DNA of 64,000 nucleotides from an uncultured Tenacibaculum sp. (GTDB lineage: Bacteria; Bacteroidota; Bacteroidia; Flavobacteriales; Flavobacteriaceae), in contig NZ_CANMMT010000005.1 of assembly GCF_947499065.1 (NCBI RefSeq), positions 1-64,000 on the forward strand, given 5' to 3'. Positions 6,093 through 63,875 of this stretch are shown here, in pieces (the stretch's first letter is position 1; each line of letters starts with the position of its first letter). A program made the translations under genes and the position numbers. A model generated the notes under the pieces. That model was not told the DNA's origin, did no database searches, and saw only the letters and a program-made list of their open reading frames with translations.

Positions 6093-7220
6093 TTAGTTCA
6101 ATGTGAAATTGATAGGTATATAATATTCAACATTTGCTTCCTTGTTATTATGCTTTCCTGGAATAAACTTAGGCAGTTTTGAAACCATTCTTTTAGCTTC
6201 TTGCTCTAGTAAATATCCATTTTCAGGTCCTTTCATTCTTATATTGCTTACTTTTCCATCTTTACCTATAATAAAACGAACCCATACTTTTCCTTCTATA
6301 TTTCTAGCAGCTGCACCAGCTGGATAGTTAAAGTTTCTTTGGATATGACTAACCATTCTCTCATTAAAGCAGTTTATTCTTTGCATTTCAGATACTTTTA
6401 AACAAGCCTTAAATTGAGGTATACTTTGTACTTGAGAAAACTTGATAAAGTCAGTAATTAATGCCTCTTTAGTTATATTAGCTCTTTTTACTGGAGCTTT
6501 TTTAACTACTTTCTTAGCTATTGCTGTGTTAGTTCCTTCTGCAGTTTTTGGACCTCTAAAGGTAATAGGTACCCCATACTTAACTTTTACAGCTTTTCCA
6601 TTGTGCTTTCCAGGAATAAACTTTGGTAATTTACTAATAATTCTACTAGCCTCTTCTTCTAAAGATACTCCTCCTTTAGGTCCTCTCATTTGAATAGATT
6701 CAACACTACCTAACTCATTAATTGTAAATTGAACTAAAACCCTTCCTTGAATTCCTTTTTTAAATGCATCCTGAGGATATTTAAAATTTTTCATAATGTG
6801 TTTAGCCATTTGTGTTTCAAAACATTTAGCTTGTTTGATTAATGGTACATTATTACATTTTGTGAATAAAGGAATTTCCTCAACTAAATTGAAAGGTATT
6901 CTTTCAATAGTAGAAGAATTATCATCTAATTCAAGCTTTCCTATTAATAAGGAATTCTTTTTTATATCTGCAACTTTTTGAGAAGAGTTCATAGATCCTA
7001 CAGCAGAAACAGCTTCTTTGTTCTTACGAACAACACGTCTTCTTGTAGAAACACTAATCGATAATTGCTTTTTATTTCCATCTTTGGTATCTTCAATAGC
7101 ACACTTAGTTATACTGTTTGGGTCTGCTATCGAATCATCAGGAGTATCACATTTTTCTTGTTGAGAAACAGCCATTGTAGAAACTAGCATAGCTGCCACT
7201 AGTAAAGGGAATTTCTTCAT
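6093..7220 (-). CDS. Exported protein with two TonB C-terminal-like domains
   Basis: The 375-residue product has a cleavable signal peptide (to AVSQQ), a Cys-containing N-terminal segment (KCDTPDDSIADPNSITKC), a basic stretch (STRRRVVRKNK), then two copies of a TonB-C-like domain at about 115-235 and 270-375. Each copy carries the motifs KCF/NCF, NFKYP/NFNYP, G.V.VQFTI, RGPKGG, EA.R.ISKLPKFIPGKHN and ends in a PI.F strand. Flavobacterial annotation calls such proteins energy transducer TonB, but the N terminus is a signal peptide rather than the inner-membrane anchor plus proline-rich linker of true TonB, so I read it as a periplasmic relative. It is the largest of three paralogues in a row on this strand; the 153-base gap before it may hold its own promoter. 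Confidence 0.8.
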   Translation of the reverse strand: MKKFPLLVAAMLVSTMAVSQQEKCDTPDDSIADPNSITKCAIEDTKDGNKKQLSISVSTRRRVVRKNKEAVSAVGSMNSSQKVADIKKNSLLIGKLELDDNSSTIERIPFNLVEEIPLFTKCNNVPLIKQAKCFETQMAKHIMKNFKYPQDAFKKGIQGRVLVQFTINELGSVESIQMRGPKGGVSLEEEASRIISKLPKFIPGKHNGKAVKVKYGVPITFRGPKTAEGTNTAIAKKVVKKAPVKRANITKEALITDFIKFSQVQSIPQFKACLKVSEMQRINCFNERMVSHIQRNFNYPAGAAARNIEGKVWVRFIIGKDGKVSNIRMKGPENGYLLEQEAKRMVSKLPKFIPGKHNNKEANVEYYIPINFTLN

Positions 7221-7373
7221 AATAGTACTCTATTTAAGGGGTTAACAAGGAGGTTAACGTATTATTAGGTTGTAAATGTATGAAAAAATCACACACAAGC
7301 AAACTTATTTAAACTTTTTTTTAAATAAGTTAATTTGTTGTTTTTTAGGTGTTTATTTTATTTTTGAGGATTT

Positions 7374-8051
7374 TTATCCCTTTTTAGGAGATTTAAAGAT
7401 AATTGGTAATGCATATTTTACATTAACATTATTACCATTATGCTTACCAGGGATAAATTTTGGAAGTTTAGCTATTAGTCTAGTAGCTTCGGTTTCTAAA
7501 AGCTCTCCTCCTTTAGGTCCTCTTTTTTTGATATCAATTACGTTACCATCTGTATCAATAGTAAATTGAACCATTACTTTTCCTTCAATTCCTTGATTCA
7601 TAGCTTCTTTAGGGTAGTTGAAGTTATTTACAACGTGTTTCAACATTTGTTTTTCAAAGCATTTAGTTTGTCCTAAAAGTGGAGTGTTTTTACACTTTTT
7701 AAATAATGGGATTTGTTCAACCAAATGAAAAGGTATTTTCTTTAGAGAAGAAACAATATCATTTTTAATATTTAATTTTTGTAGCTCTAATGTGTTGTTT
7801 TTTACGTTTTTTACTTCTTTTGAAGCGTTTAAAGAAACATTAGATTGTCTTATTTTTCTATGTCTTTTTCGTGTAGATAATTTTTTATTATCAGAATCCT
7901 CTAGAGCTTTCTTTACATCATCAATAGAACATTTGGTTACACTAATACTGTTAGGGTCATTTACAGTTTCATTTGGTGTCTCGCATTTTTCCTGAGCTAT
8001 AGCAATTGTAGAGATAAATAAAGCTATAACTATTGAAAGGGGAAATCTCAT
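7374..8051 (-). CDS. Exported protein with one TonB C-terminal-like domain
   Basis: The 225-residue protein is a single-domain paralogue of the neighbouring 375-residue one. It has a signal peptide (to AIAQ), the same N-terminal signature (KCETPNETVNDPNSISVTKC), a basic linker (STRKRHRKIRQ), and one TonB-C-like domain from about residue 120 (CFEKQMLKHVVNNFNYP, GKVMVQFTID, RGPKGGELLE, KLPKFIPGKHNG). No transmembrane anchor remains after signal cleavage. The function is unknown beyond the domain name. Its domain is closer by eye to the first domain of the downstream gene than to the third paralogue, which suggests local duplication. Confidence 0.8.
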   Translation of the reverse strand: MRFPLSIVIALFISTIAIAQEKCETPNETVNDPNSISVTKCSIDDVKKALEDSDNKKLSTRKRHRKIRQSNVSLNASKEVKNVKNNTLELQKLNIKNDIVSSLKKIPFHLVEQIPLFKKCKNTPLLGQTKCFEKQMLKHVVNNFNYPKEAMNQGIEGKVMVQFTIDTDGNVIDIKKRGPKGGELLETEATRLIAKLPKFIPGKHNGNNVNVKYALPIIFKSPKKG

Positions 8052-8126
8052 AGTTAGTTTTTTAAAGGGTTATTTTTGGGAATGTGAAAATAATATAACG
8101 ATATGATATATTGTATGTTTGGTATA

Positions 8127-8789
8127 TTAATTTAACGTTAAGTTAAGTGGAAATGAATAAGTAACTATAACTGGAAGTCCTTGCATTTTTCCTGGAGTAA
8201 AGTTTGGAAGTTTATCAAGTATTCTTAGTAACTCTTTGTTAAGTAGTTTGTTATGTTTTTTACTTTTTATTTTCGGATTTATAACCTTACCATAAATATC
8301 AATACTAAATTGAATAAAAATTTTATCGTTAATTGATTCATCGATAAAGTCATAAGTAGAAAAGTTTTTTGAAAAATGAGTGTTTATTTGTTTCTTAAAA
8401 CATTTAATATTCTCCTCTTTTGTCTCATTTTGACAAGAATTAAACATTGGAATTTCTTCTACAAGATTAAAAAGAACCTCTTTTGTAGCATTAGGTAGAT
8501 TTAAAACAGTTTTATTACTTTGCAGTTCTAAATTAATATTGTTTCCTTCAATTTTTAGTTGACTTAATTGTTCTTTATTAGCAATTCTCCTGAGAGGCCT
8601 TTTTCTTATTATTCTTGTTCGTGTTATTTTTTTAGAATAATCTTCTTTTTCTTCAATTTCACACTTTTTAACGGATATTGCATTTGGGTCAATATCATTT
8701 TCTTTTAGAGTTTCACATACATTAACTTGACTATATATGTATAGTATATTAAATAGATAGAATAGGGGAATTAGTACAGCCTTTTTCAT
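8127..8789 (-). CDS. Divergent exported TonB-C-domain-like protein
   Basis: This 220-residue protein is the most diverged of the three paralogues but keeps the plan: signal peptide (to YSQ), VCETLKENDIDPNAISVKKC, a basic segment (RTRIIRKRPLRR), then the domain with EEIPMFNSC, IKCFKKQI, DKIFIQFSID and LDKLPNFTPGKMQG. The GPKGG loop of the siblings is replaced by KSKKHNK. It lies first in the minus-strand row, 75 bases ahead of the next. A role in the periplasm is inferred from the signal peptide only. Confidence 0.75.
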   Translation of the reverse strand: MKKAVLIPLFYLFNILYIYSQVNVCETLKENDIDPNAISVKKCEIEEKEDYSKKITRTRIIRKRPLRRIANKEQLSQLKIEGNNINLELQSNKTVLNLPNATKEVLFNLVEEIPMFNSCQNETKEENIKCFKKQINTHFSKNFSTYDFIDESINDKIFIQFSIDIYGKVINPKIKSKKHNKLLNKELLRILDKLPNFTPGKMQGLPVIVTYSFPLNLTLN

Positions 8790-62089: not shown

Positions 62090-62506
62090 ATGGAATTACA
62101 AGAAGGTGATAAAGTAGACTTAGTAATTGGTCAGCAAACTGCATTAGGATATACTGTTTTAATCGATGAAGAATATGAAGGCTTGTTATATAATAACGAA
62201 GTTTTTAAAGACTTAGAAGAAGGAATGAAAACAGTAGGTTATATTAAAAAGATTAGAGAAGACGAAAAAATAGATGTTTCTCTAAGACCTCAAGGTTTTA
62301 GAAATGTAATTGATTCGGATGCAGAAGTAGTTCTTCAGAAATTAGAAGAGAAAGGTTATTTAATGTTAACCGATAAAAGCTCACCAGAATCAATAAAATT
62401 CCGATTACAAATGAGTAAGAAAGCGTTTAAAAGAGCGGTAGGGAATTTATATAAAAGTAAAAAGATAGTTTTAAAAGAAGACAGAATAGAGTTGGTGAAG
62501 AAATAA
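62090..62506 (+). CDS. S1-like RNA-binding protein, half-length CvfB type
   Basis: The 138-residue protein has an S1-like OB-fold (EGDKVDLVIGQQTALGYTVLIDEEYEGLLYNNEVFKDLEEGMKTVGYIKKIREDEKIDVSLR, residues 5-68) and a C-terminal winged helix (LEEKGYLMLTDKSSPESIKFRLQMSKKAFKRAVGNLYKSKKIVL). CvfB proteins are usually about 280 residues with several S1 domains; this is one S1 domain plus the winged helix. It may bind RNA. It is co-transcribed with menD and followed by a terminator. Confidence 0.88.
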   Translation: MELQEGDKVDLVIGQQTALGYTVLIDEEYEGLLYNNEVFKDLEEGMKTVGYIKKIREDEKIDVSLRPQGFRNVIDSDAEVVLQKLEEKGYLMLTDKSSPESIKFRLQMSKKAFKRAVGNLYKSKKIVLKEDRIELVKK

Positions 62507-62526
62507 ACCAATTAACATATAAAAAG

Positions 62527-62554
62527 AAAGCACGTCTAATTGACGTGCTTTTTT
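62527..62554 (+). terminator. Rho-independent terminator
   Basis: AAAGCACGTC / GACGTGCTTT stem with a TAATT loop and a following T run, 20 bases after the stop at 62506. Confidence 0.92.
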
Positions 62555-62573: not shown

Positions 62574-63821
62574 TTATTGTTTATCCTCTTCTTGTTTGTC
62601 TTCATTTTCTTGATCTTCTTCTGGAAGATCTTCAAGCGGTGCTTCTTTTGGTTGACTATCTTTTAAATCGTTTACACGTTTAATGTTTTCGTAAAAAGCA
62701 TTTGCATTTGGGTCAGAAGGATCCATTTTACCGTAAGCAGCTTTATAATAAAAATCTGCTTTTTCGTAGTCTTTACCAAGCTCATAATATTTACCTACGT
62801 AGAAATCACCAATATGAGAGTTTGGATATTTGATCATTACAAAATCACCTAATACTCTAAGGTAATCACCGTCTAATTTGTCTATAACAATTCCTTCAAT
62901 AGCAAAAATATCATCTAAACGAACATTTAAGTTAGTGCCATATAGATATTCAATGTCTAAATATTTTTGTTCTACATATTTGATAGCCTCTAAAGGTCCT
63001 AAATCTTTAATGTTATTATCAAATTCGTCTTTCGTAATTTTAGAATATATAGAAAACATTTTATCAAATGCTCTTGGAATAGTTTCACTAATAACAGATA
63101 AATGATTTGGTGCGTCTTTGAATTCATTAAAAGTAAAATGAAGGTTTTTAGCTTCAAAAGAAGATAGGTAAGTAGCTATCTGATTGTATCTATCGTCTAC
63201 TTCTTTTCTAATATACTTTTTATTGTTACTTGCGTAGAAAAAATATGAATTATCTACAGAAGCTAATCTTCCTAAAGAATAAGAAGCAATAGTATTTGCT
63301 GCTAATTCAGAAAAATTAGGAGTAATACATATATAAGAATTAAAAATAGGTTCTTGTGCTTTTAAGAAATGAGTAATAAAGTTACCTCCAATACCTTGAC
63401 CAACAATGGTCATAAAAGGAGAAGTTCTATAATTACCTTCCATATGAGGGATTAACTCTTTTTGTATAAAGTTGAAAAACTTAGTAGAGTGACTTGTTAA
63501 AGCATTGTTTGAAGGAATAATAGAAACATCTTTATTGTAAGAGTTTTTCATACCTATTCCAACTACAATTTGTTTAGGAGCCTTATCTACATTAGCATAT
63601 AGTTTAGCATTACCCACATATAAGTCGAAAAGATAACCATCACCTAAAACAATTGCCACAGGATAACTCATGGCTTCCTCTTTGTCATAATCTTTAGGAA
63701 TGTAAATTTTTACAATTCTATCTTTATTAAATTCTTTAGAATTAATCTTTTCAGTAATTACTTTTTGAGAAAAAAGCTGTAAACTGAATAATACGGTAAA
63801 TAAGAAAAATAGTTGTTTCAT
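62574..63821 (-). CDS. Exported esterase-fold protein lacking the nucleophile serine
   Basis: The ATG at 63821 (MKQLFFLFTVLFSLQLFSQ, signal peptide) is preferred over the ORF-track start 8 codons upstream. The 415-residue protein resembles the esterase D/enterochelin-esterase fold: VKIYIPKDYDKEEAMSYPVAIVLGDGYLFD and the elbow TIVGQGIGGNFITHF at 138-152, where the Ser of GxSxG is replaced by Gly143 (codon GGT). The His region (KDAPNHLSVIS) is kept. A TPR-like part (FYVGKYYELGKDYEKADFYYKAA) and a very acidic C-terminal tail follow. It is likely non-catalytic and may act as a binding protein. Confidence 0.78.
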   Translation of the reverse strand: MKQLFFLFTVLFSLQLFSQKVITEKINSKEFNKDRIVKIYIPKDYDKEEAMSYPVAIVLGDGYLFDLYVGNAKLYANVDKAPKQIVVGIGMKNSYNKDVSIIPSNNALTSHSTKFFNFIQKELIPHMEGNYRTSPFMTIVGQGIGGNFITHFLKAQEPIFNSYICITPNFSELAANTIASYSLGRLASVDNSYFFYASNNKKYIRKEVDDRYNQIATYLSSFEAKNLHFTFNEFKDAPNHLSVISETIPRAFDKMFSIYSKITKDEFDNNIKDLGPLEAIKYVEQKYLDIEYLYGTNLNVRLDDIFAIEGIVIDKLDGDYLRVLGDFVMIKYPNSHIGDFYVGKYYELGKDYEKADFYYKAAYGKMDPSDPNANAFYENIKRVNDLKDSQPKEAPLEDLPEEDQENEDKQEEDKQ

Positions 63822-63875
63822 AAGGGAATATATTATATCGTTCAAATATAGAAAAGAAAAATAAAGTTATTATGT

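Follow-up and report, generated by a model that had tools for sequence, protein, structure and literature searches.

A probable exported pseudo-esterase of Flavobacteriaceae, from a family that mostly lacks the catalytic serine

The window, a stretch of 64,000 nucleotides of Tenacibaculum DNA, carries a gene for a protein with an esterase fold in which the GxSxG motif expected around the catalytic serine reads GQGIG (residues 141–145). Is this an esterase broken in one isolate, an enzyme with another chemistry, or an old protein that has given up catalysis for binding? The preliminary description of the locus favoured a pseudoenzyme kept by selection. The open reading frame, from an ATG at 63821 to a stop at 62574, encodes 415 amino acids with no internal stops; that description had placed the intact frame exactly, leaving out that it lies on the minus strand (Table 1). 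The nearest public locus is that of T. aiptasiae, with 99% protein identity.

Table 1. Positions in the window of the pseudo-esterase gene, its parts and the flanking signals.
Feature	Position	Strand	Basis
Pseudo-esterase gene, ATG start, 415 codons	62574..63821	minus	ORF and syntenic orthologues
Putative Sec-type signal peptide, residues 1–19 (MKQLFFLFTVLFSLQLFSQ)	63765..63821	minus	read from sequence; N-terminus in listed orthologues similarly hydrophobic
Alpha/beta-hydrolase (EstD/IroE-like) domain, residues 20–262	63036..63764	minus	Pfam, fold search, model
C-terminal TPR-like helical domain, residues 263–389, most constrained part	62655..63035	minus	model, conservation, dN/dS, weak TPR matches
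Acidic tail, probably disordered, residues 392–415	62577..62648	minus	model and composition; length and presence vary
Residue 143 codon GGT (Gly), nucleophile elbow	63393..63395	minus	sequence, model, census
Residue 204 codon (Ile), acid position; Asp/Glu in 97/103 of sister clade, mostly Glu/Asp in canonical relatives	63210..63212	minus	census
His240 codon, catalytic-His position; His in only 9/108 clade members	63102..63104	minus	census
TATATTTG, fits the -7 element of Bacteroidetes (TAnnTTTG), some 20 bp upstream of the ATG; possible promoter of the gene itself	63843..63850	minus	pattern match, inferred
Two-way terminator-like hairpin between convergent cvfB and pseudo-esterase gene	62524..62554	not assigned	hairpin search

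An AlphaFold2 model of the window protein, built from 41 orthologues, reached a mean pLDDT of 87.3. As far as about residue 255, strands and helices alternate in it as they do in the alpha/beta-hydrolase fold; seven helices (residues 264–389) and a disordered tail follow. The fold is predicted to be intact, and the model together with its fold matches to esterases bears out the retention of fold elements proposed earlier. Residues 28–147 match the Pfam family PF00756 'Putative esterase' (3.8e-8, 33.8 bits against a cut-off of 22), and an NCBIfam search of the protein assigned no family. As for the TPR-like part of the preliminary description, the C-terminal part is indeed helical, but its similarity to TPRs is weak: Pfam TPR profiles gave no match in the window protein, and the matches of this part stay below threshold, the best being 0.0058 among orthologues and, more strongly, 3.4e-4 among paralogues. 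The tail is as acidic as first described (12 Asp or Glu among 24 residues, modelled with low confidence), but it is no conserved feature, being found in Tenacibaculum and some other genera and missing in Polaribacter. To judge from the sequence of its N-terminus, the protein is probably exported.

Among solved structures the nearest is 4W9R (Coch_1243 of Capnocytophaga ochracea), which shares the same two domains over residues 20–389 (sequence E 2.7e-25, profile 2.1e-37, fold E 2.1e-25, TM 0.77–0.78 by query length) but differs in sequence, with 24% identity in the fold alignment. In the sequence alignment its elbow reads ASEEAG, with Glu at position 143, and Asn stands at the histidine position, so that 4W9R is likewise without Ser and His. 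In excerpts of the CASP-CAPRI paper that includes it (PMC5030136), 4W9R figures simply as a putative esterase of two domains, uncharacterised, in the set of homodimer targets, and these excerpts make no mention of a lost triad. This paper was the sole informative match of our literature search, in which no paper on a Flavobacteriaceae pseudo-esterase was found.

Fold matches three to five, after 4W9R, are IroE-like and BES esterases. The IroE-like 3GFF of Shewanella oneidensis, named a serine hydrolase, and BES 2QM0 share the alpha/beta-hydrolase domain (E 4e-9 and 2.7e-4), but unlike the window protein they keep GHSFGG and GHSLGG elbows. Feruloyl esterases, PfeE and EstB are also among the fold matches, and a search of a viral structure library returned mostly generic hydrolases. 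Compared with the PF00756 esterases (EstD, S-formylglutathione hydrolase, feruloyl and siderophore esterases), with which it shares the profile match, the window protein has its Ser replaced, Ile for the acid, and a His position that is not conserved.

Two paralogues in the genome of the window (L221 and L222) and L293 are further PF00756 relatives, with a GWE(M/A)A elbow that carries Glu for Ser. They keep the His, show stronger TPR signals and make up a second group without Ser. Another paralogue of this genome, L223, has its Ser intact. Elsewhere in the window, at 6093–8789, three exported proteins encoded side by side on the reverse strand contain CET/CDT...DPNSI.KC stretches that resemble one another; they are apparently tandem paralogues.

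In the model, residue 143 occupies the turn between strand 133–142 and helix 144–154, that is, the position of the nucleophile elbow, confirming that Gly (codon GGT) stands where Ser is expected. Measured against a serine esterase, the window protein has Gly143 for Ser and Ile204 for the acid, with His240 present in the stretch NHLSV; measured against the Asp-nucleophile enzymes (haloalkane dehalogenases and epoxide hydrolases), Gly143 and Ile204 again do not fit.

Relatives were gathered from 59 nearby genomes, 80 named loci, about 200 genomes of the family and an order-wide sample, and the census of catalytic positions set 211 distinct family members (108 in the window clade and 103 in its sister, the pan-locus clade) against 28 more distant esterases. 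Ser was found at position 143 in only 6 of the 211 family members, as against 25 of the 28 distant esterases, 27 of which also have the His. Within the window clade, position 143 is Gly in 85 members, Thr in 8, Arg in 7, Ser in 4 and another residue in 4, so the glycine is largely conserved among orthologues, the outcome by which the preliminary reading had proposed to recognise a pseudoenzyme. Most members have Phe, Ile or some other non-acidic residue at position 204, and position 240, outside the few members with His, is Ser, Lys, Tyr, Asn and others. Because position 240 switches between Tyr and His among close Tenacibaculum species, the His240 of the window protein looks unconstrained; the 'retained His region' first reported thus holds for this protein but not for its clade, and the acid partner of the His is gone.

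The sister clade presents a different picture. Position 143 is there Asp (51), Gly (41), Asn (4), Glu (3), Ser (2) or another residue (2), with an acid kept at position 204 in 97 and His at position 240 in 96 of the 103 members. Compared with the distant esterases, the pattern in both clades suggests that the Ser was most likely lost early, before or near the origin of the family, and that the window clade lost the rest of the triad too.

A match at 1e-20 or better was present in 171 of 200 sampled genera of the GTDB family. In the order-wide sample, the top members within the family scored 1e-118 to 1e-153, and the best match outside it, at 7.8e-52, had an intact GHSFGG elbow. In our preferred reading the protein family is specific to Flavobacteriaceae and normally single-copy, and the window clade comprises Tenacibaculum, Polaribacter and about ten other genera. 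On a quick tree, computed with the elbow and His-loop columns left out, the window and pan-locus clades are sisters (SH-aLRT 98 and 99), with the canonical esterases outside and a Ser-bearing copy, L225, near the base of both clades (support 88, long branch). The tree takes a minimum of 7 changes for the Ser, 8 for the His and 9 for the acid, and at least five for the interchange of Gly and Asp at position 143. The L225 copy (L225:830-2104) is an extra one, in a genome of the window's genus group; its GHSFTAT elbow and retained His mark it as possibly an active or less decayed relative.

The two clades also differ in where the gene lies. At all 80 named loci it is reversed and adjoins menB, and in every contig long enough to show them cvfB and menD flank it on the opposite side. 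Among other genera of the window clade, 7 of 8 loci agree in large part with the menD-cvfB / menB placement, some having no detected cvfB; the exception is the G091 copy (L147), which is placed outside both the men and the pan locus. In the sister clade, which includes Flavobacterium and Capnocytophaga, by contrast, the order across the 11 genera examined is glmS, a DUF4270-like gene, a glgA-like gene, panC, panD, ybhN, the gene and radA (ybhN being labelled by Pfam LPG_synthase_TM and the other neighbours by our reading of the proteins). The gene mostly comes right before radA, and ybhN, the gene and radA share one strand, most of their junctions being short or overlapping. The pan loci of the eight window-clade genomes inspected are without the gene, which suggests either that a single orthologue has moved or that two ancient paralogues were lost reciprocally. 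In three genomes placed in the window's genus (L303, L304 and L305), the gene is absent and the menD-cvfB-menB run is intact, the gap from cvfB to menB measuring just 3 to about 50 bases. The gene can thus be done without.

The cvfB-like gene of the window (62090–62506) encodes only 138 amino acids, the winged-helix end of CvfB, and the matching frames in the sister-clade genomes L306 and L307 have about 276, so CvfB looks shortened beside the pseudo-esterase. Second or third tandem copies of the pan-locus form occur in L175, L181, L182, L184, L185, L200, L201 and L215, some truncated or with the elbow further altered (GHxxMGN, GDDNFTD). Upstream of the window gene, the element TATATTTG faces a matching -7 element of menB; the pattern is common in the window, which makes the promoter assignment only suggestive.

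Against its nearest orthologues, the window gene has a dN/dS of 0.04–0.18. The overall median is 0.31 over 369 usable pairs, which share sequences and are not independent, and by part, likewise over non-independent pairs, the hydrolase domain has a median of 0.35, the helical domain one of 0.17 and the tail one of 0.61. The helical domain is therefore under roughly twofold stronger purifying selection than the hydrolase domain. Nearly invariant positions number 31 of 123 in the helical and 22 of 241 in the hydrolase domain of the window clade, against 8 of 123 and 30 of 237 in the sister clade, indicating that constraint is differently distributed in the clade without a triad.

Taken globally, the family shows triad loss throughout, syntenic conservation and a purifying selection that weighs more on the helical domain. 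The loss of catalytic residues is common to the orthologues, and the gene is intact and under purifying selection, as is characteristic of a pseudoenzyme; the first reading is upheld in this respect, with a loss much wider and older than could be seen from this one sequence. We consider it likely that the gene encodes an old exported, probably periplasmic, pseudo-esterase turned binding or scaffold protein. Judged from the residues at the active site, the window protein most likely has no hydrolytic activity, and the pattern of constraint, kept on the fold and chiefly on the helical domain, makes a binding or scaffold role in the cell envelope most likely. Weighing against this reading are the few members in which Ser reappears and the related genomes that have no such gene; that the hydrolase domain evolves fast would, moreover, be compatible with a slow decay in which this domain has no role.

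Mechanistically, the ancestor would have been a serine hydrolase of the EstD/IroE type that carried a TPR-like helical domain and then lost its Ser. In the lineage of Tenacibaculum, Polaribacter and their relatives, the gene sits between menD-cvfB and menB and not at the pan locus, the acid and the His have decayed too, and selection would now hold the fold and, above all, the helical domain. Most likely the protein is exported and, by means of the old hydrolase fold and its TPR-like helices, binds a protein or a small ligand within the envelope. The tail, fast-evolving and not conserved outside Tenacibaculum and some genera, is given no part in this mechanism. Neuroligins and thyroglobulin are alpha/beta-hydrolase pseudoenzymes that work in a similar way, keeping the hydrolase fold for binding after triad loss; they differ in belonging to unrelated, eukaryotic subfamilies without a TPR-like helical domain.

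Since an acid and a His persist in the sister clade, ancestral members may still be catalytic, and the term pseudoenzyme is firmer for the window clade than for the whole family. A possible, though distinctly tentative, extension is that the enzyme died stepwise: a serine esterase would have passed through pan-locus forms with Asp or Gly and an acid-His pair, possibly with an altered Asp- or His-based chemistry, to full triad loss, a shift of constraint to the helical domain, the move to the men locus and a periplasmic binding protein.

Changed chemistry as the explanation of the family itself appears improbable. It would have pan-locus proteins work like haloalkane dehalogenases or epoxide hydrolases, through Asp143, Asp/Glu204 and His240 (a combination seen in 45 of 103 members), or use the His/acid pair as a general base beside Gly143 (Gly143, Asp204 and His240 in 39 of 103). 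Dehalogenases have GHD elbows, which the GHD elbow of this family resembles. Gly and Asp nonetheless interchange repeatedly within the family, some Asp143 members with a GYD elbow have Glu, Asp or Pro in place of the His, and the window clade, including the window protein, is without the acid and usually without the His.

That another residue near the elbow serves as nucleophile is very unlikely. Ser134 is invariant in the window clade, but in the model it opens the strand, nine residues ahead of the elbow, and it is not conserved in the sister clade; we rejected it on both grounds.

The fixed placement between menD-cvfB and menB could hint at a role in menaquinone synthesis, for instance as a degenerate MenH-like alpha/beta hydrolase, an idea to which we give hardly any weight. 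The gene runs opposite to the men genes and has a candidate promoter of its own and a terminator in common with cvfB, the sister clade sits at the pan locus, and the men run persists without the gene in three genomes. MenD and MenB are cytoplasmic, whereas this protein appears to have a signal peptide. MenH itself is a cytoplasmic alpha/beta hydrolase that acts after MenD through a Ser-Asp-His triad. A menaquinone role was rejected on these points, and MenH identity also on the missing Ser and acid and on Pfam, which gives PF00756 only.

Least credible of all is an esterase broken in this isolate, as the Gly in place of the expected Ser might by itself suggest: the orthologue census, with Gly143 prevailing in the clade and Ser in few members only, rules out a strain-specific mutation, and the low dN/dS against close orthologues agrees.

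If the protein is a pseudo-esterase, Pfam 'Esterase' matches would lead annotation and activity screens astray in most genera of a large bacterial family, mainly aquatic. The family offers a natural series of intact, partly decayed and fully decayed active sites, along with the solved structure 4W9R and natural gene losses, which makes the passage from enzyme to binding protein directly testable. In addition, the pan-locus form, adjoining a ybhN-type membrane protein (Pfam LPG_synthase_TM), provides a concrete lead to a partner.
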